DNA of 64,000 nt from Umezawaea endophytica. Its GTDB lineage: Bacteria > Actinomycetota > Actinomycetes > Mycobacteriales > Pseudonocardiaceae. Where the stretch lies: positions 62,001 through 126,000 of the forward strand of contig NZ_JANYMP010000017.1 of assembly GCF_025061645.1 (NCBI RefSeq), in the 5' to 3' direction. Below the pieces are notes generated by a model that worked only from the letters and a program-made list of their open reading frames with translations, had not been told where the DNA came from and did no database searches. Shown in pieces: positions 4,194-27,480 of the stretch. Position numbers and translations under genes: made by a program. The first letter of the stretch is position 1. Each line of letters starts with the position of its first letter.

Positions 4194-6938
4194 GTGCCGC
4201 GTGGGGAACGCCCGCTCGACGAAGGTGACACCCCTCTGCTGCGGTTCGCGGCCGATCTGCGGACCCTCCGGGACCAAGCGGGCGGGCGCACGTACCGCCA
4301 GCTAGGCACCCGCGCGCACTACTCGGCCACGACCCTCTCCGACGCCGCGGGCGGCCGGAAGCTGCCCAGCCTCGCCGTGACACTGGCGTACGTGCAGGCG
4401 TGCGACGGTGACCCAGGGGTCTGGGAGAGCCGGTGGCGCGAGGTCGCCGCCGAGGTCGCGCCACCCGAGGACACCGCGTCCGACCAGGGCTCCCCGCCCT
4501 ACGCCGGGCTGGCGGCGTTCCAGCCGGAGGACGCGGACCGCTTCTTCGGCCGCGAGCGGATCCTGGACGACCTGGTGGGCCGGATGGCCGACCGGCGGCT
4601 GGTGGGCGTCTTCGGCGCGTCCGGGGCGGGCAAGTCGTCGCTGCTGCGGGCCGGGCTGATGCCGCGCATCGCCGAGGGCGCGTTCGAGTGCACCTCCTCC
4701 ATCGTGGTCACCCCGGCCGAGCTGGACCTGAGCCCGGAGGTGCTGGACCGGGTCATCGGCACCGAGGTCGACGCGCTGGTGCTGGTGGTCGACCAGTTCG
4801 AGGAGGTCTTCACCCTCTGCCCGGACCTGGCCGCGCGGACCGCGTTCGTCGAGGCGCTGCTGACCGCGTCGCGGACCCGCTGCCGGGTCGTCATCGGCGT
4901 CCGGGCCGACTTCTACGGACACTGCGCCCAGCACCCCGGCCTGGTCGAGGCCCTGCGCGACGCGCAACTACTGCTGGGCCCGATGTCCGCGGAGGAGCTG
5001 CGCCAGGCGATCATGCGCCCGGCCGCCAAGGTCGGCTGCACCGTCGAGACGGCGCTGGTCACCCGCCTGGTCGCGGACGCCACCGGCCAGCCAGGCGTGC
5101 TGCCGCTGGTGTCGCACGCGCTGCTGGAGACGTGGCGGCGAAGACGCGGGACCACCCTCACCCCGGCCGGGTACGAGGCGGCAGGCGGCATCCAGCACGC
5201 GCTCGCGCAGACCGCCGAACGCACCTACACGGCGCTGGAGACCGACCAGCGGGCCGTGGCGCGGCAGATATTCCTGCGGCTCACCGCGCTGGGCGACCGC
5301 ACCGAGGACACCAAGCGCAGGCTCGCCCGCGGCGAACTGGACAACGACGACGTCGACACGCAGGTCGTGCTGGACCGGCTGGCCCACGCGCGGCTGCTGA
5401 CGTTGGACCGAGACGCCGTGGAGATCGCCCACGAGGTGCTGATCCGCTCGTGGCCGCGGCTGCGCGGCTGGCTGAACGAGAACCGCGAAGGCCTGCGCAC
5501 CGGGCGGCAGCTCACCGAGGCCGCGGCCACGTGGGACGTGCTGGCCCGCGAACCCGACTCGCTGTACCGGGGCACCCGGCTGGACGCGGCGGCCGAGTGG
5601 GCCGCCCGCGACGAGGTGCGGCTCAGCTCGCGCGAACGGGAGTTCCTCACCGCCAGCCTGACCGCCCGGAACCGCGAGCAAACGCTCGCGCTGCGCCGAA
5701 CGCGCAGGCTGCGGCAGCTCGTCGCGCTGCTGGCCGTGCTGCTCGTCCTCGCGAGCGGCGCGATCGTGCAGACGATCCGGGCGCAGGCCGTGGCGGACAA
5801 GCAGCGCAACATCGCCGTGGCCCAGCAGATCGCCATCGCGGCCGTGCGGATGGGCGACAGCAACCCCACGCTCGCCAAGAAGCTGAGCGTCGCCGCGTAC
5901 CGGCTGGAGCCGACGCGGGACGTCGTGGACGGCCTGCTCACGACCGCGACGGCCACCTGGAGCGACCACCTCGTCCGCCGGGTCGTGCCGCGGGACGAGT
6001 CGTCGATGGGGCCGGACGGGAACCCCGTCCGGGGCCGGGGGCAGGCCGCGGGCCTGGACGGGACGAGCGAGCCGGACGCGGTGAGGTCGCTCGGGTTCAC
6101 CTCGGGCGACCGGGTGCTCGCCGCCACGCTCGACGAGGTCTGGGACCTCACCGACCCGACCAAACCCGTGTTCCTGCACCGGTTCCCGGCCAGGGTCGGC
6201 TCCGTGGCGCTCGCCCCCGACGGCAGCCGGATGGCCACGATCGACGCCGACGGCAGCACCACCGTGCGCCTGTGGGAGATGGCGGACCCGAAGGCGCCGA
6301 CGCTGGTCTCGACCGTCGCGCGGCCGGGTATCCGAGGCCGGGAGGTGCGGTTCGACCAGAGCGGGCAGGTGCTCGTGACGATCGACGCCGACAGCACCAC
6401 CAGCCTGTGGCGCCTGGACTCCCCGTCCGGGCCGATGGTGTTCGGCGAGCTGCGGAGCATCCCGCACGTCGCCACGATGGCGCTCTCGGCGGACCGGCGG
6501 CTGCTCGCCACCGGCGGCGTGGACGGCACCATCCGGCTCTGGGACCTCACGGACCCGAAGCGCCCGACGACGCTGTCCGAGCTGTCGGTGCAGGCCGACG
6601 GGATCAAGGCGCTGGCCATCTCCGCGGACGGGCGGCACCTCGCGAGCGCCGCGGGCTCGGACACCGTGCGGCTGTGGGACATCACCGACCCGCGGCGCCC
6701 GTCCGAACCCGCGACCATCACCGGCCCCACGGCCTCGGTGCACACCATCGAGTTCCTGCCGCGCGGGGCCGCGGGCCCGAACACGACGGTGATGACGTCG
6801 AGCGGCGACGGCTCGTCCCGGCGCTGGGACTTCGACGAGGCGAGCGCCGCGGCCCGGCTGTGCGAGGGGGCCTCGCTGAGCCGGGAGGAGTGGCAGCGCT
6901 TCTTCCCCGGCCTGGAGTTCGTTCCACCGTGCGGATGA
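4194..6938 (+). CDS. HTH - nSTAND NTPase - WD40 repeat protein
   Basis: A 914-residue STAND-type signalling ATPase. GTG at 4194 sits 7 nt after AGGAGG (4181-4186). Order of parts: an Xre-like HTH region (about 10-80, 'TYRQLGTRAHYSATTLSDAAGG'), a short linker, then the conflict-type STAND NTPase with Walker A 'GASGAGKSS' (residues 141-149) and Walker B-like 'DALVLVVDQFEEVF' (about 191-204). A helical arm follows ('GVLPLVSHALLETW'), one transmembrane helix (about 505-528) and a C-terminal WD40 propeller with 'LATGGVDGTIRLWDLTDPKR'-type repeats (about 640-905). Such proteins are common in actinomycetes and are thought to be ligand-triggered oligomerising switches. The membrane helix puts the propeller outside or against the membrane. 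It is divergent from the terpene synthase homologue and shares its control region. Confidence 0.9.
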   Translation: MPRGERPLDEGDTPLLRFAADLRTLRDQAGGRTYRQLGTRAHYSATTLSDAAGGRKLPSLAVTLAYVQACDGDPGVWESRWREVAAEVAPPEDTASDQGSPPYAGLAAFQPEDADRFFGRERILDDLVGRMADRRLVGVFGASGAGKSSLLRAGLMPRIAEGAFECTSSIVVTPAELDLSPEVLDRVIGTEVDALVLVVDQFEEVFTLCPDLAARTAFVEALLTASRTRCRVVIGVRADFYGHCAQHPGLVEALRDAQLLLGPMSAEELRQAIMRPAAKVGCTVETALVTRLVADATGQPGVLPLVSHALLETWRRRRGTTLTPAGYEAAGGIQHALAQTAERTYTALETDQRAVARQIFLRLTALGDRTEDTKRRLARGELDNDDVDTQVVLDRLAHARLLTLDRDAVEIAHEVLIRSWPRLRGWLNENREGLRTGRQLTEAAATWDVLAREPDSLYRGTRLDAAAEWAARDEVRLSSREREFLTASLTARNREQTLALRRTRRLRQLVALLAVLLVLASGAIVQTIRAQAVADKQRNIAVAQQIAIAAVRMGDSNPTLAKKLSVAAYRLEPTRDVVDGLLTTATATWSDHLVRRVVPRDESSMGPDGNPVRGRGQAAGLDGTSEPDAVRSLGFTSGDRVLAATLDEVWDLTDPTKPVFLHRFPARVGSVALAPDGSRMATIDADGSTTVRLWEMADPKAPTLVSTVARPGIRGREVRFDQSGQVLVTIDADSTTSLWRLDSPSGPMVFGELRSIPHVATMALSADRRLLATGGVDGTIRLWDLTDPKRPTTLSELSVQADGIKALAISADGRHLASAAGSDTVRLWDITDPRRPSEPATITGPTASVHTIEFLPRGAAGPNTTVMTSSGDGSSRRWDFDEASAAARLCEGASLSREEWQRFFPGLEFVPPCG

Positions 6939-21284: not shown

Positions 21285-21345
21285 ATCATGCTTGACCCCC
21301 GCTGCTAGGGTTTGGGACGTGCACGTGACGCGCCGATTTACCCAC

Positions 21346-21373
21346 CCCCGGCCGGTAGTACCGGTCGCCGGGG
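21346..21373 (+). promoter_or_regulatory. Leader stem-loop before the PheRS-like gene
   Basis: CCCCGGC (21346-21352) pairs with GCCGGGG (21367-21373), with an inner CGGT/ACCG stem (21353-21356, 21360-21363) and an AGT loop. It lies about 80 nt before the ATG at 21456. The T-box consensus is not present, so amino-acid control through a T-box is not supported. Confidence 0.4.
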
Positions 21374-21455
21374 TTCGCAGCGCGCGCTGACACGACCCGG
21401 TGACGGACCGGCCGAGGGGATCCCCCGCCCGTCCACCTCACCGACAGGACCCACC

Positions 21456-22553
21456 ATGCTCCCGCGCGACCTCAGCGACCCCGCACAGGGGCCCCACGCC
21501 ATCCAGTTGATCCTGAACGACATCCTCACCGCGACGACGGACACCGCCGACCTGCGCGTGGTCCGCGAAGACCCGGTCACCACCATCGCCGACAACTACA
21601 CCAACCTCGGCTACCCGCCGGACGCCATCACCAGGGACGCGAGGTACACCAGGTACCTCGACGACGAACGGGTGCTCCGCAGCCACGCCAGCGCCATGAT
21701 CCCCTTGTCGCTCAGGAGACTGGCGGCCGAGGGCGACACCTGGGACGACGTCCTGCTGGCCTGCGTGGGCGCGGTCTACCGCCGCGACACCGTGGACCGC
21801 GTGCACACCGGCACCCCGCACCAACTAGACCTGTGGCGCATCAGCCGCACACCGCGCGACCTGGACACCTTGGTGGTCAACGCCATCCGCGGCGCACTGC
21901 CAGACAGGACCCTGCGCCTGATCCCGGCCACCCACCCGTACACCGAGAACGGCAGCCAGGTGGACGTCTGGGTGGACGGCACCTGGCTGGAGGTGGCCGA
22001 ATGCGGCCTAACGGCAAGGCACGTCCTGGACAGGGCAGCCCTACCGACCACCGTCACCGGCATCGCACTTGGCCTCGGCCTGGACCGACTACTCATGCTC
22101 CGCAAGGGCATCACCGACATCAGACTGCTCAAGGCAACAGACCCGAGAATCGCCAACCAGATGCAAGACCTGACCCCCTACCGCCCAGTCTCCAAACACC
22201 CACCGGTGTCACGAGACCTCTCCATAGCAGTAGACGAGAACGCAGACGACGAAACCCTGGGCGACCAGGTACGCACAGCGATCGGCGACCTCGCAGAGGA
22301 GATCAAGGTCCTCTCCCAAACCCCCGTAGAAGACCTCCCGAACGCAGCCGCCACCAGACTAGGCGCCAAACCAGGCCAAAAGAACGTCCTGCTCAGAATC
22401 GTCCTACGCGACCTGAGCCGCACCCTCACCGACGACGAGGCCAACCAAGCACGCGACACCGTCTACACCGCCCTGCACCAGGGCACCACCAGCCAAAGCC
22501 CCACCAGCCTGAGCACCACCAGCCCATGGACTGACCCACCCACGACGGACTGA
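21456..22553 (+). CDS. Single-chain PheRS-like class II aminoacyl-tRNA-synthetase homologue
   Basis: A 365-residue protein joining a PheS-like class II catalytic core to a ferredoxin-fold anticodon-binding (FDX-ACB) domain normally found at the end of PheT. Core features are motif 2 'VLRSHASAMIPLSLRRL', 'CVGAVYRRDTVDRVHTGTPH' and motif 3 'GIALGLGLDRLLMLRKGITD'. The tail (about 265-355) reads 'HPPVSRDLSIAVDEN' to 'RDLSRTLTDDEANQARDTVY'. This is the layout of mitochondrial PheRS; the N-terminal coiled coil of bacterial PheS is absent. Housekeeping PheRS in actinomycetes is the two-gene pheST, so this is probably a paralogue: a tRNA ligase for a special purpose, a resistance copy, or a ligase acting on another carrier. 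ATG at 21456 has a modest AGGA ahead; the ORF extends to 21312 without a better start. Confidence 0.8.
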   Translation: MLPRDLSDPAQGPHAIQLILNDILTATTDTADLRVVREDPVTTIADNYTNLGYPPDAITRDARYTRYLDDERVLRSHASAMIPLSLRRLAAEGDTWDDVLLACVGAVYRRDTVDRVHTGTPHQLDLWRISRTPRDLDTLVVNAIRGALPDRTLRLIPATHPYTENGSQVDVWVDGTWLEVAECGLTARHVLDRAALPTTVTGIALGLGLDRLLMLRKGITDIRLLKATDPRIANQMQDLTPYRPVSKHPPVSRDLSIAVDENADDETLGDQVRTAIGDLAEEIKVLSQTPVEDLPNAAATRLGAKPGQKNVLLRIVLRDLSRTLTDDEANQARDTVYTALHQGTTSQSPTSLSTTSPWTDPPTTD

Positions 22554-22730: not shown

Positions 22731-24473
22731 TCACCCCCCAGCCTTAGCCGTCCCCCGAATCTCATTCAGGTAGTTGTAAATCGTGTACCGCGTAACGTCC
22801 AACGCCCCAGCCAGGTGATCCACCGAATCCTTGATCAAGAAATACCCGGCGTCATCCAACACCCGCACCACAGTCGACTTGTGCACCTTCTTCATCAACG
22901 CCACCGGCACGTCCACATCGGCGACGGCCCGCTCGACCAGCAACCTCTGCAACGTATCCACATCACCGGGAAACGCCTCCACCACCCGTTCAACCCGCCC
23001 GACCACGGCCTGATCGCTGTTCACGCACAGGCACCCCACGGCCACCCCACCCGAATCCCGCAGGAACACCGTCGACGACCGGATCACCCGCCCGTCAGGC
23101 GCGTACGTCTCGTAGTTGGTCAGGTCGTGGGTGGTCCCCCGCCGGACCAATCCCAGCAGCAGGTCCGTCATCGGCCCGCCCACTTCACGCCCGGTCAGAT
23201 CCCCGGCGATCGCCACGATCGAGTTCGGCAGCGCCCCGAGGTCGTGCAGCACGACCTCCGTCCCGGCCCCCAACGCGGCGGCGAGGCTGTTCACCGTGGG
23301 CACCAGCGCGGCCAGCACGTCCGCCCCGCCGGACACCTGCTCGATCTCCCGCCGCACCGGCGCCACCGGCCGCCGAACCCCGCGCAGCGCGGCGGCGAAC
23401 CGGGCCACGGTCTCCGGCGTCGTGGAGGCGTGCGGGGTCAACCGGACGTGGTCGGGCCGCACGGTCGCCGTCACCCCGGCGTCGACCAGCGCCGCCCCCA
23501 CCACGGAAGCGGGGTGGTCCGGCAGCGTGAACGCCAGGATCCCGGCCCTGCGGTCCTCGGCCGACGCCGAGACCACCTCCCCGCCCACCGAAGCGATGAT
23601 CTCGCCCAACTCGTCCAGCCGGGTCCCGATCCGGTCCCCGATCGCCGCCACCCCGCCGAGTTCCACCAGTTCCAGCGCCTGTCCCAGCGCACCGGCGGCG
23701 ATCGGGCTCAGGTTCGTGATCGACCACCCGGCCGCGCCTTCGGCCACCGGGTGCACGTCGTCGTCGAACAAGCCGGCGTCCAACGCCCCGGTCCACCCGG
23801 ACATCATCGGGTCCAAACGCTCCAGGGCCCGGTCCGACAGCACCATGAACCCCGTGGACCACCCCGCGCGCAACCACTTCTGCCCGCCGACGACGAGCAC
23901 GTCCGCGACCTCCCATGGTTCGTCGACGACCCCGAACCCCTGGATCCCGTCCACGATCAGCAGCCGGTCCCCGACCACCTCGCGCAGCGCGGCGAGGTCG
24001 GCCCGGTACCCCGTCCGGAAGTCGACGGCGGACACCGACACGGCCGTCGTCCCCGGCGTCAGCGCCGAGGCCACCGCCGACGGCGTGACCCACCCGCGGT
24101 CGGGCCGCATCCACCGCACGTCGGCGCGTCCGGCCCGCTGCCACGGGTACGTGTTCGACGGGAACTCGGCGGCCGACACCACGACCTGCCCGGTCACGCC
24201 GAGCGCGACCTGGAACAGCCCGGTGCTCGTGTTGGGCAGCAGGGTCACGTGGTCGGTGTCGCTGCGGCACAACCGGGCCGCGGCGGCCTTCGCCCGCAAC
24301 TCCTGCCGCATCAGGTCGTCCACAGTGGACGGGCCTGCCGAGGCCGAGGCCTCAAGCAGCCTCGTCGACGTGTCGACCACGGCGTGCGAGGGCGGCCCGA
24401 ACCGCCCGAAGTCCAGGTACCCCTCCGGCTCGTGGAACTGGACCAGGTACGAGGCGGGGAGCCGAGTAGTCAC
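22731..24473 (-). CDS. PLP-dependent aminotransferase class V fused to a YheO/DauR-type PAS-HTH regulator
   Basis: A 580-residue fusion. Residues 1 to about 370 are a fold-type I PLP enzyme of the cysteine desulfurase/kynureninase/isopenicillin-epimerase group: 'LLPNTSTGLFQVALGVTGQV', 'LLIVDGIQGFGVVDEPWEVAD' and the Schiff-base lysine Lys199 in 'VVGGQKWLRAGWSTG'. Residues about 376-490 resemble the YheO-like PAS domain ('GTEVVLHDLGALPNSIVAIA', 'VIRSSTVFLRDSGGVAVGCL'). Residues about 510-575 are the paired HTH ('VVRVLDDAGYFLIKDSVDHL', 'VTRYTIYNYLNEIRG'). DauR is a D-arginine-responsive repressor of this type. The gene starts with GTG directly after the ABC ATPase stop, last in an amino-acid transport operon. 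It may both metabolise the imported amino acid and control the operon. That dual role is inference. Confidence 0.85.
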   Translation of the reverse strand: MTTRLPASYLVQFHEPEGYLDFGRFGPPSHAVVDTSTRLLEASASAGPSTVDDLMRQELRAKAAAARLCRSDTDHVTLLPNTSTGLFQVALGVTGQVVVSAAEFPSNTYPWQRAGRADVRWMRPDRGWVTPSAVASALTPGTTAVSVSAVDFRTGYRADLAALREVVGDRLLIVDGIQGFGVVDEPWEVADVLVVGGQKWLRAGWSTGFMVLSDRALERLDPMMSGWTGALDAGLFDDDVHPVAEGAAGWSITNLSPIAAGALGQALELVELGGVAAIGDRIGTRLDELGEIIASVGGEVVSASAEDRRAGILAFTLPDHPASVVGAALVDAGVTATVRPDHVRLTPHASTTPETVARFAAALRGVRRPVAPVRREIEQVSGGADVLAALVPTVNSLAAALGAGTEVVLHDLGALPNSIVAIAGDLTGREVGGPMTDLLLGLVRRGTTHDLTNYETYAPDGRVIRSSTVFLRDSGGVAVGCLCVNSDQAVVGRVERVVEAFPGDVDTLQRLLVERAVADVDVPVALMKKVHKSTVVRVLDDAGYFLIKDSVDHLAGALDVTRYTIYNYLNEIRGTAKAGG

Positions 24474-25232
24474 CTAGAGCACCTTCGCGAGGAACTGCCG
24501 CGTGCGTTGATGTTGTGGATTGTCCAACACCTCCCGAGCCGTCCCGGACTCGACGATCGCCCCGTCCACCATGAAGGCCACGTGGTCCGCGACCTCCCTG
24601 GCGAACCCGACCTCGTGCGTCACCACGATCATCGTCATCCCGTCGCGGGCCAGCGCCACCATGACGTCGAGCACCTCCCCCACCAGTTCGGGGTCCAGCG
24701 CCGACGTCGGCTCGTCGAACAGCATGACCTTCGGCTTCATCGCCAGCGCGCGGGCGATGGCGACCCGCTGCTGCTGCCCGCCGGACAGCTCCCGCGGGTA
24801 CGCGCCGCCGCGGTCGCCGAGCCCGACGCGGGTCAGCAGTTCCAACGCCTCCCGCTCGGCCTCCTTGCGCGGGCGGCCCAGCACCTGGATCGGCCCCTCG
24901 GTCACGTTCTCCAGTGCCGTGCGGTGCGGGAACAGGTTGAACCGCTGGAACACCATCCCGATGTCCCGCCGCTGCGTCGCGACCTCGCGCTCCGGCAGTT
25001 CGTGCAACTTCCCGCCCTTCAGCACGAACCCCACGGGGTGGCCCGCGACCCAGATCCGACCGGCGTCGATCGTCTCCAGGTGGTTCACGCACCTCAGGAA
25101 CGTGCTCTTCCCGGCTCCGGACGGCCCGAGCAGGCACACGACCTGCCCCTCGTCGACCGTCAGGTCGACACCGCGCAGGACCTCGGTCGACCCGTACGAC
25201 TTCCGCACCCCGTGCGCACGAACGAGAGTCAT
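24474..25232 (-). CDS. Polar amino-acid ABC transporter ATP-binding protein
   Basis: A 252-residue ATPase of the GlnQ/HisP type. Walker A '[20 protein letters not shown]', the Q-loop '[17 protein letters not shown]', signature '[19 protein letters not shown]', Walker B '[20 protein letters not shown]' and the switch His in '[18 protein letters not shown]' are all intact. ATG at 25232 overlaps the permease stop (ATGA). It energises uptake by the permease and binding protein encoded upstream, and is followed without a gap by the fusion gene. Confidence 0.95.
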
Positions 25233-26059
25233 CGGACACCCTTCCCGTAGGCGCGTTCCAGGTAGTACTGCCCGACGTTGGCCACGCTGACCACGATCAG
25301 GTACCACAGCGCGGCGGCGATCAGCGTCTCCATGATCTCCAGGTTGCCCGACGAGATCCGGTTGGCCGCGTGGATCAGCTCCAGGAACCCGATCACCGAC
25401 GCCATCGACGTGCCCTTGAGCATGTTGATGAAGTTGTTGCCGGTGGGCGGGATGATCACCCGCATCGCCTGCGGGAGCACCACTCGCCGGAACGTCTTGC
25501 CGGGGGTCATCCCGATGGCCTTCGCGGCCTCGATCTGACCGGGGTCGACGCTGTTCAGCCCGGCCCGGACGATCTCCGCCATGTACGCGCTCTCGTTGAG
25601 CCCCAGCCCCAGCAGGGCCGCCACGAACGCCGTGATCAGCACGTTCGTCGGCTCGTGGAGCAGGAACGCGTCGGTGAACGGCACCGGGATGGAGATGAAC
25701 TTGAACACCAGCGCGAGGTTGAACCACAGCAGGATCTGGAGCAGCACGGGCAGGCCGCGGAACAGCCAGATGTAGCCCCACGCGAACCAGCGGGCCACCG
25801 GGTTGGGCGACCGGCGCAGCAGCGCGAGCAGCACGCCGAGCACGATCGCCCCGGCCTGGGCGCACACCGCGAGGACCACGGTGTTGACCAGGCCGTTGAT
25901 CATGATCTCGTGGGTGAAGAAACCCGGCACGTCCTCGTAGAGGATCTGGGCGTCGGCCAGCGCGAACCCGAGCGCCGCGAGCAGCCCCAGGATCAGCGCC
26001 CCGACGACCCAGCGGCCCCAGTGCCGGATCGGGACGACCTGGAGGTCCTCACTTGCCAT
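25229..26059 (-). CDS. Polar amino-acid ABC transporter permease
   Basis: A 276-residue inner-membrane protein of the HisM/GlnP family. It has an extended cytoplasmic N-terminus, about five to six transmembrane helices ('[19 protein letters not shown]', '[20 protein letters not shown]', '[20 protein letters not shown]') and the EAA loop '[20 protein letters not shown]'. It overlaps the binding-protein gene by 11 nt at its start and the ATPase gene by 4 nt at its end. Only one permease is encoded, so it presumably works as a homodimer. Confidence 0.95.
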
Positions 26060-26969
26060 TGACGGTCACCTTCGTGATCGCGCCCTGGGCGACGTCCCAC
26101 TCGGCCAGGATCTTGCCGTACGTGCCGTCGTCGACCAGCGCTTGGAGCGCGGCCTGGACCGACTTGGTGAGCTGCGGGTTCGCCTTGTTCACGCCGATGC
26201 CGTACTGGCCGCCGTTGATCGGGTCGGCCTTCACGACCTCGAAGTACTCGCCCTTGCCCGCGGTCTGCGCCACGTACACGGCGGTCGGCAGGTCGTTGAG
26301 GATCGCGGCGACGCGGCCGGTGCGGAGCTGGTTCTGGTTCTGCGTGTCGCTGTCGGTCGAGGTCACGGTCACCTCGCCCTTGCCTGCGGCGACGCACTTG
26401 GTGCTTTGCTCCTTGGCGTAGGCCTCCTGGCTGGTGCCCAGGTTGACCGCGACGCCCTTGCCGCAGAGGTCGTCCGGCCCCTTGACCGAGCTGGGGTTGC
26501 CCTTCTGCACCATGATCGTGATGCCGGAGGTGAAGTAGTCGACGAAGTCGATCGCGTTCTGGCGCTCGGCGGTGTCGTTCATCGCGGCCATCGTGAGGTC
26601 GATCCGGCCGGACTGGAGGCTGGTGATCAGCGAGCTGAACGCCATGTCGCTGTACTCAACCTTGAGCCCCAGCTTCGCGGCGATGGCGTTGGCGAGGTCG
26701 ACCTCGGAGCCCTTCGCCGTCTTGCCGTCCTCCGCGTAGAAGTTGTTCGGCGGGTTCTGGATGTTCGATCCGATCTTCACCACGCCTGCGGACGCGATCG
26801 CGGGCGGCAGGCCGGCGGCGAGCGCGTCGTCCTTCTTCACGGACGAGACGATCGACTCGGTGGACGGCTGCGGCCCCCCGGACGCGGCCGGTGCGGCCCC
26901 GTCGTCGTTTCCGCAGGCCACCAACGTGGACAGGACTAGGGCGGTAACGGCAAGCCTTCGGATCAGCAC
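26049..26969 (-). CDS. Polar amino-acid ABC transporter substrate-binding lipoprotein
   Basis: A 306-residue solute-binding protein of family 3. The lipobox 'LSTLVACGN' puts the lipidated Cys at residue 19. A short Ser/Gly/Pro linker leads to the binding domain: 'GVVKIGSNIQNPPNNFYAED', 'GSEVDLANAIAAKLGLKVEY', 'FSSLITSLQSGRIDLTMAAM' and 'QNAIDFVDYFTSGITIMVQK'. It is the first gene of a four-gene minus-strand operon. The ligand cannot be read from sequence; the downstream fusion hints at a D- or basic amino acid. Confidence 0.93.
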   Translation of the reverse strand: MLIRRLAVTALVLSTLVACGNDDGAAPAASGGPQPSTESIVSSVKKDDALAAGLPPAIASAGVVKIGSNIQNPPNNFYAEDGKTAKGSEVDLANAIAAKLGLKVEYSDMAFSSLITSLQSGRIDLTMAAMNDTAERQNAIDFVDYFTSGITIMVQKGNPSSVKGPDDLCGKGVAVNLGTSQEAYAKEQSTKCVAAGKGEVTVTSTDSDTQNQNQLRTGRVAAILNDLPTAVYVAQTAGKGEYFEVVKADPINGGQYGIGVNKANPQLTKSVQAALQALVDDGTYGKILAEWDVAQGAITKVTVNGK

Positions 26970-26999
26970 GGCGCCTCCAGGTGTGGTGGCGAAAAGCTA

Positions 27000-27032
27000 C
27001 AACTCGTTGTTGAAGATGTCCACAGCGAGTTG
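27000..27032. promoter_or_regulatory. Inverted repeat upstream of the amino-acid transporter operon
   Basis: CAACTCG (27000-27006) and CGAGTTG (27026-27032) are perfect inverted 7-mers with a 19-bp spacer, 31-63 nt before the binding-protein start. This is a candidate operator, perhaps for the YheO/DauR-type HTH encoded at the end of the operon. The position between divergent genes means thioredoxin could also be affected. Confidence 0.45.
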
Positions 27033-27108
27033 AAATCGCCTCGGGAATCCCTGGGGCCGCCCGTCCGTTGAACAGGGCGTTAGGACTGCTGTCGAGCTAG
27101 GAGGACGC

Positions 27109-27480
27109 ATGGCCACGGTGGAGCTGACCACGAAGAACTTCGACGAGGTCGTCGGCGGTTCGGACATGGTCCTGGTCGACTTCTGGGCCTCGTGGTGCGG
27201 TCCGTGCCGCCAGTTCGGCCCGGTCTACGACAAGTCGTCCGAGAAGCACGGGGACATCGTCTTCGGCAAGGTCGACACGGAGGCCCAGCAGGAGCTGGCC
27301 GCGACGTTCCAGGTCCGGTCCATCCCGACGCTGATGATCGTCCGCGACGGGATCGTGCTCTACGCGCAGCCGGGCGCGCTGCCCGAGTCGGCGCTGGAGG
27401 ACCTGATCGAGCAGGCCCGCAAGGTCGACATGGACGAGGTGCGCAAGGAAGCCGAGGCGCAGCAGGCCGCGGCCGAGTAG
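27109..27480 (+). CDS. trxA: Thioredoxin
   Basis: A 123-residue cytoplasmic thioredoxin with the active-site 'WCGPC' at Trp29-Cys33, the preceding 'VLVDFWAS' strand and the cis-Pro motif 'VRSIPTLMIV'. The ATG at 27109 follows AGGAGG (27100-27105). The C-terminus is extended by a charged helix ('VDMDEVRKEAEAQQAAAE') beyond the usual length of about 108 residues. It reduces protein disulfides using thioredoxin reductase, which is not in the window. It is divergent from the transporter operon. Confidence 0.93.
   Translation: MATVELTTKNFDEVVGGSDMVLVDFWASWCGPCRQFGPVYDKSSEKHGDIVFGKVDTEAQQELAATFQVRSIPTLMIVRDGIVLYAQPGALPESALEDLIEQARKVDMDEVRKEAEAQQAAAE

Follow-up and report, generated by a model that had tools for sequence, protein, structure and literature searches.

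The locus described here raises the question of whether a single protein may both process a compound imported by its own operon and control the expression of that operon. It lies in a stretch of 64,000 nt of Umezawaea endophytica (assembly GCF_025061645.1, contig NZ_JANYMP010000017.1, positions 62,001-126,000), hereafter called the window. An earlier note on this DNA had claimed that one chain of 580 residues with an intact PLP lysine, Lys199, has a C-terminal region of about 200 residues resembling the D-arginine repressor DauR (YheO/DauR-type PAS-HTH), that its gene is the last one of a binding protein-permease-ATPase operon with zero or negative spacing, and that it could sense an amino acid or its product through the PAS part and repress this operon through an inverted repeat at 27000-27032. 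The features on which the following analysis is based are listed in Table 1.

Table 1. Positions of the fusion gene, its domains, the importer genes and the predicted regulatory elements in the window.
Feature	Position	Strand	Remarks
Fusion gene, class-V PLP enzyme + YheO-type PAS + HTH	22731..24473	-	580 aa, GTG start
Aminotran_5 (PF00266), residues 65-335	23469..24281	-	Pfam E 1.1e-15
PLP lysine K199 codon	23877-23879	-	Inside the Aminotran_5 match
PAS_6 (PF08348, YheO-like PAS), residues 388-491	23001..23312	-	Pfam E 3.6e-27
HTH_22 (PF13309), residues 512-570	22764..22940	-	Pfam E 5.2e-18
ABC transporter ATPase, polar amino-acid type	24474..25232	-	Profile matches
ABC permease, HEQRo_perm_3TM above cut-off	25229..26059	-	Profile matches
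Substrate-binding protein (SBP), SBP_bac_3	26049..26969	-	Profile matches
Perfect inverted repeat, 25-bp arms, 9-nt loop	22617..22675	.	Separates the fusion gene from the convergent gene 21312-22553
Putative tandem operator TTCAAC-N5-GTGGAC-N3-TTCAAC-N5-GTTGTAG	26997..27034	-	Conserved in 84/84 fusion operons
Putative operator site 1, TTCAAC-N5-GTGGAC	27018..27034	-	Overlaps the predicted -35 box
Putative operator site 2, TTCAAC-N5-GTTGTA	26998..27014	-	Within the spacer, overlaps the -10 box
Predicted -35 box TGGACA	27017..27022	-	
Predicted -10 box TAGCTT	26994..26999	-	17 nt after the -35 box

The domain composition was examined with Pfam. The profiles PF00266, PF08348 and PF13309 each exceed their curated cut-offs, with scores of 94.9 bits for PAS_6 (cut-off 27) and 65.3 bits for HTH_22 (cut-off 29.6), as the earlier note had anticipated for the C-terminal part. 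The class-V PLP enzyme, the PAS domain and the HTH domain, present in one chain, are a real fusion. The YheO-type PAS-HTH module of the protein is a true one, and the cofactor site of its class-V domain is intact. Lys199 is located within the motif GGQKW and, like D175 and Q178 (the cofactor-site Asp and Gln), is invariant in the 84 full fusions that we identified; T82, F104, R339, R344 and H348 are likewise invariant in all 84. The sequence VTRYTIYNYLNE in HTH_22 is the probable recognition helix, which is nearly invariant across the 84 fusions and has the consensus V-T-R-[YH]-T-I-Y-N-Y-L-N.

The AlphaFold2 model of the fusion, built from 54 sequences, has a mean pLDDT of 84.9, and a model of the PAS-HTH part, built from 41 sequences, one of 86.2. 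Comparison of the latter with solved structures gave weak matches to PAS/LOV-type folds (best E 1.2e-4), and no solved relative of this part matched by sequence better than E 0.87. These weak structural matches say nothing against a known fold for the PAS-HTH part.

Two assignments of the protein were rejected. It does not belong to the cysteine desulfurases of the SufS kind because its catalytic region has no conserved cysteine: among alignment columns 1-375, column 69 is the only one with a Cys in more than half of the 84 sequences, and the NCBIfam sufS model scores 35.5 bits, with a cut-off of 475.1. The sole hint of a role in defence was a weak SspA match (E 0.003).

The operon is transcribed from the minus strand in the order SBP, permease, ATPase, fusion. 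The SBP and permease genes overlap by 11 bp, the permease and ATPase genes overlap by 4 bp, and the gap between the ATPase and fusion genes is 0, so that the position as last gene and the tight spacing claimed for it are correct. The presence of SBP_bac_3, BPD_transp_1/HEQRo_perm_3TM and an ABC ATPase places the transporter among the polar amino-acid ABC importers (PAAT). The models matched by the three importer proteins include those for lysine/arginine/ornithine, cystine and glutamine, which indicates an importer of the polar amino-acid kind. None of the substrate models among the matches listed is above its equivalog cut-off (for the ATPase, among the best 25 of 195), and for this reason reading the substrate off the three profiles was given up.

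A divergent thioredoxin gene starts upstream of the operon, at 27109 (+). The repeat with 25-bp arms that follows the operon is possibly a two-way terminator. The gene at 21312-22553 (+), convergent to the fusion gene, encodes a single-chain PheRS-like protein with tRNA-synt_2d and FDX-ACB domains, which has the look of a short PheRS paralogue of the mitochondrial type. Inspection by eye showed that similar ORFs are also present after the enzyme gene in loci L026 and L034.

We then determined how widespread the fusion is. A first contig scan yielded 23 loci, all labelled as Pseudonocardiaceae except one labelled Rhodococcus rhodnii. The exception (L017, strain NRRL B-16535) falls within Kibdelosporangium in the enzyme tree and is perhaps a mislabelled or contaminated assembly. 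Of 297 sampled genomes of the Pseudonocardiaceae, a family of soil bacteria, 137 had a match at E 1e-20, and 84 full enzyme+PAS+HTH fusions, window included, were present in the 297 genomes. In all 84, the module is in one frame with the class-V enzyme, a departure from the stand-alone PAS-HTH format, and the gene is preceded by SBP, permease and ATPase genes in identical order. The census does not count three distant enzyme matches (G095, G034 and G068; 44-46% identity), a fragment (G287, locus L064) or, among the matches listed, those below 40% identity, of which only G251 was fetched (as L069). In a sample of the phylum, 31 of 396 genomes matched, and at E 1e-20 none of the 396 contained the fusion besides the window; all other matches were enzyme-only or PAS-HTH-only. 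A plasmid collection gave 64 matching records, and among the 20 matches listed the sole record covered for at least 80% has separate genes. No paper on the fusion was found in open-access text. Taken as a sequence-based result, the fusion architecture is well supported.

The class-V enzyme also continues in frame in another way. In two loci of genus code g13 (L040, 5995-8232; L041, 6001-8223) it is extended by ~370 residues. The extension of L040, the one scanned with profiles, matches zinc alcohol dehydrogenase model TIGR03366 (363.7 bits, cut-off 328.1), and L041 is almost equal to it in length and ends identically. A second kind of fusion of this enzyme is thus seen, in L040 with an alcohol dehydrogenase, and may be a clue to the pathway.

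Next, the regions upstream of the SBP genes were analysed. All fusion operons contain TTCAAC-N5-GTKGAC-N3-TTCAAC-N5-GTTGTA or a near form of it, that is, two CAAC-N5-GTTG-type palindromes in tandem, 20 bp apart, over the -35 and -10 boxes. With the window pattern as the reference (23 fixed bases), the other 83 fusions have no mismatch in 14 cases, one in 55, two in 13 and three in 1. The CAAC-N5-GTTG core of site 2 is perfect in 81 of 84; that of site 1 is perfect in 35, and reads GTGG in 43 and ATGG in 1. The pattern is also rare. At up to 3 mismatches the tandem occurs once in the 11-Mb genome, as does the exact single site TTCAACN5GTTGTA, and a looser tandem pattern was matched exactly at one place, the window, in 394 genomes of the class, three of them Pseudonocardiaceae. 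An operator in front of the fusion operons is, as a prediction, well supported.

The inverted repeat at 27000-27032 does exist, with arms CAACTCG/CGAGTTG, and consists of the outer half-sites of the predicted operator plus three inner arm bases. As a simple operator it was rejected, since all 7 arm bases pair in only 6 of the 84 fusions; its outer half-sites do belong to the conserved stretch 26997-27034. The earlier proposal of self-repression is thus retained in part: autoregulation at that promoter is probable, with two tandem palindromes as the predicted operator in place of the repeat.

These features suggest an autoregulated uptake-and-processing operon whose last gene encodes a PLP-based "trigger enzyme" of the PutA kind, a reading that we consider likely. 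According to this model, the polar-amino-acid-type ABC importer would bring in an amino acid, which the class-V PLP domain would process. The PAS-HTH tail would bind the two tandem palindromes over the -35 and -10 boxes and block RNA polymerase; binding of the imported substrate, or of its product, to the PAS domain would release the block, and the operon would shut again once the enzyme has removed the inducer. Within this model, we infer from the sequence context that the fusion represses rather than activates, that its PAS domain is the ligand sensor, that it is catalytically active, that its HTH binds the operator and that an amino acid is its substrate.

Since promoter and predicted operator share bases, conservation of the element has two causes: the same bases double as -35 box, spacer and -10 box, with site 1 covering the -35 box and site 2 filling the spacer and overlapping the -10 box. 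A rival explanation is that the element is a strong promoter only and that the fused PAS-HTH part regulates something else or nothing, which we regard as very unlikely. The element does include full -35 and -10 boxes. Operator positions 13 and 15-17 (T-GAC, in the -35 box) are invariant in all 84, position 14 of the same box is G in 44, T in 35, A in 4 and C in 1, and the -10 box reads TANNNT in 84 of 84 after a spacer of 17 nt. Both TTCAAC half-sites, however, are nearly invariant although they lie outside the two boxes, which speaks against a promoter only. It is also conceivable that the bound fusion recruits or remodels the polymerase instead of blocking it. PAS-HTH proteins can activate, as is generally known, and the first TTCAAC adjoins the -35 box; nevertheless, activation seems highly improbable, because site 2, in the spacer and over the -10 box, is in the classical position of a repressor and because the YheO-type protein Cj1387c of Campylobacter represses its neighbouring gene, according to the available part of PMC4519771.

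Relatives that lack the PAS domain bear on the model of a PAS domain sensing the imported compound. There are 23 of these: four enzyme+HTH forms (in genomes G260, G273, G183 and G109) and 19 with the enzyme only, the latter at more than 50% identity. SBP and permease genes are absent from the flanks of all 23 (~6 kb screened; 4.5 kb upstream for L174-L176), and an ATPase match in L045 is unrelated (36%, opposite strand). No SBP orthologue was found elsewhere in these 23 genomes; 12 of them gave a match at E 1e-30, all of at most 43% identity, against 62-100% identity in each of six fusion genomes used as controls.

To place these relatives, a maximum-likelihood tree was made of 66 enzyme domains, in which six locus pairs from the same genome were counted once, L175 and L176 were left out and L048, which has one stop codon, was included only up to that stop. 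Nine of the 23 are nested between full fusions, at four or more distinct points of the tree: L026 (= L031) with L030; the group L032, L033, L034, L035 and L038; L025 (= L036) inside Kibdelosporangium; and L037 inside Amycolatopsis. For the remaining 14, of which two are missing from the tree and the others branch elsewhere, it may be that they never carried the fusion. Of independent contrasts there are four on well supported (starred) branches and seven on all branches; the four agree in direction, with p = 0.125 in a sign test, the lowest value possible with four pairs. PAS and transporter lie on either side of an intact enzyme part of ~1.1 kb and so cannot both be lost in a single simple deletion with the enzyme left in place.

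The four enzyme+HTH forms have kept the operator directly before the enzyme gene, with 2-3 mismatches, and therefore look like remnants, while the tree itself cannot tell gain from loss. Among the enzyme-only relatives, three of 19 (L025, L034 and L037) keep an operator remnant with 2-3 mismatches in the absence of an HTH, so part of the conservation could reflect promoter function, as the promoter-only explanation holds. The other 16 have at best 8-11 mismatches across the whole locus, which is background and speaks against that explanation, with the reservation that many of them may never have had the element. The overall pattern of absences is as expected if PAS senses the cargo of the transporter and HTH acts at the operator.

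The same relatives were used to weigh a different division of labour, in which the PLP domain would be mainly the sensor, as in MocR regulators, changing the HTH through an external aldimine, and PAS would be a dimeriser or a second input. The four genomes in which enzyme and HTH are joined without PAS, behind the operator, would fit this scheme, as does the pairing of an aminotransferase-like sensory domain with a GntR-type DNA-binding domain in MocR proteins, described in the part of PMC5320631 at hand. Against it, enzyme-only relatives, in the 19 family genomes and in other families, retain nearly all of the catalytic residues checked (in the outgroup, 3 of 10 rows have A in place of T82), which implies a function of the domain beyond regulation; PAS and transporter are, besides, either both present or both absent, an indication that it is PAS that senses what is imported. 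We therefore consider a MocR-like sensor unlikely.

Some other bacteria have the PAS-HTH and class-V parts as separate genes close to each other. Near unfused PAS-HTH genes, a class-V gene was found in 2 of 23 loci (L102, and L101 at a distance of ~5 kb), and 23 short loci (L192-L214) gave one weak class-V match (L212). In L102 (genome G170), a class-V gene and an amidohydrolase gene come after a PAS_6-HTH_22 gene, beside a peptide-type importer; the class-V enzyme of L102 is 29% identical to that of the window over 281 residues, and the fusion of the same genome groups with Amycolatopsis in the enzyme tree. Between the two unfused genes of L102, an inverted repeat, TAGTCGAA-CAT-TTCGACTA (6652-6670), was noticed by eye, which is possibly a candidate operator of that branch, where CAAC-N5-GTTG is lacking. 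L101 has two PAS-HTH copies in a 12-kb stretch of one genome (6034-6630 and 12502-12630), the second of which, partial at the end of the stretch, adjoins a class-V gene and an amidohydrolase gene. The genome of the window itself (G000:C4) encodes a second YheO-type PAS-HTH protein, in a cluster (L089, 4046-7781) with PALP (threonine-synthase-like), D-serine-dehydratase/alanine-racemase-type and ornithine-cyclodeaminase-type genes that weakly resembles the beta-hydroxyaspartate set.

In the plasmid collection, the PAS-HTH part matched 15 records. In five of the nine annotated neighbourhoods, at most one gene separates a class-V PLP gene from the PAS-HTH gene, namely in those of Rhodococcus erythropolis R138 (L215), Variovorax (L223 and L224), Rhizobium leguminosarum pRLN3 (L225) and Phyllobacterium (L226), and a RidA gene is present in the flanks of eight of the nine; PAS_6 and HTH_22 were confirmed with Pfam for L215, and the other plasmid loci rest on a tblastn match and annotation. 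L225 and L226 have the gene order amino-acid ABC permeases, class V, RidA, PAS-HTH, which would match the gene kinds of the window in unfused form. Identity of the window enzyme is 29% with that of L215 and 33% with a Rhizobium pRL8 enzyme, and it gave no match in Variovorax L223 at E 1e-4; the pairing is thus recurrent, its enzymes being distant in some cases. Around the predicted operator of the window, a scan of five genes showed no RidA. The reaction is possibly a beta-elimination, given the RidA genes that go with several of the unfused systems and the missing catalytic cysteine of desulfurases.

The regions upstream of 35 unfused PAS-HTH genes contain eight CAAC-N5-GTTG sites, while 0.17 are expected from dinucleotide shuffles over the 35 regions, a count to be read with the motif having been defined on the window and already seen by eye in L215/L216 and L223. 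The eight sites are in four of the 35 loci: L215 (three), L216 of Streptomyces (two), L223 (one) and L224 (two). L216 has the tandem layout with the same 20-bp spacing as the window, and L224 has the perfect form TTCAAC-AGTTT-GTTGAA. The motif is absent from the other 31 regions, including those of L101, L102 and L221, which nevertheless share the TIYNYLNE helix, and those of L225 and L226, which do have a class-V gene nearby. Its presence before some unfused PAS-HTH genes supports the view that the PAS-HTH module reads this site, and its recurrence in Streptomyces, Rhodococcus and the betaproteobacterial Variovorax argues against the element being a promoter only.

A broader reading, which we put forward tentatively and hold to be less than probable, is that these proteins form a new class of trigger enzymes, a PLP enzyme with its own YheO-type repressor, with an operator, TTCAAC-N5-GTTGAA, that some of the unfused relatives from other phyla would share. 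It would include an evolutionary series in which loss of the transporter along with PAS left enzyme-HTH proteins that have turned into sensors of the MocR kind, binding the ligand at the PLP site.

The autoregulated operon that we favour has several consequences. It comes with a precise predicted operator for a PAS-HTH module, two CAAC-N5-GTTG-type palindromes over a promoter, and domain absences that nature offers as a series link PAS with the transporter. Enzyme, sensor and repressor would be separately testable in a single protein, and the idea is easy to test since the predicted switch is nearly unchanged among relatives. If true, a PLP-based member joins the small set of enzymes controlling their own genes.

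By its Pfam domains, the fusion has the enzyme and the DNA-binding domain in one chain that characterize trigger enzymes. PutA of enteric bacteria degrades proline and acts as repressor of putA and of the transporter gene putP; it depends on FAD/NAD, contains a ribbon-helix-helix domain and relocates to the membrane. The logic of PutA, one chain serving as catabolic enzyme and as DNA-binding regulator of its own gene and a transporter gene, resembles that of the fusion, for which regulation is proposed. The parts are unrelated: the fusion consists of a PLP class-V enzyme and PAS_6-HTH_22, and is in one operon with an ABC importer. At the level of the enzyme, SufS, the C-DES cystine lyase and hercynylcysteine sulfoxide lyase share 16-21% identity with the fusion among the matches listed. 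In the unfused class-V, RidA and PAS-HTH sets (L215, L223-L226), corresponding modules are neighbours or have a single gene between them; the sets differ in that the genes are separate and RidA is present; they share CAAC-N5-GTTG in L215, L223 and L224, and the enzymes were compared for L215 and L223.

DauR is the D-arginine repressor, which responds to D-arginine and has dauBAR as its target. The C-terminal 200 residues of the fusion match both families of the YheO/DauR-type PAS_6-HTH_22 regulators; the YheO-type regulators examined outside the fusions are separate proteins, whereas here the module is joined to an enzyme. In the available portion of PMC4519771, only five Pfam architectures are counted for PAS_6, the signal sensed by the YheO-type protein is stated as unknown and no operator of such a regulator is described; PMC10717218, in its accessible part, deals with a different PAS family. 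MocR regulators, finally, also combine a PLP-enzyme fold with a DNA-binding domain and have operators with repeated half-sites (PMC5320631, available part). The fusion was ruled out as a MocR protein, as its HTH_22 is C-terminal and the domain that defines MocR gave no Pfam match up to E 1; it differs from MocR in having a class-V enzyme at one end, HTH_22 at the C-terminus and PAS in between.
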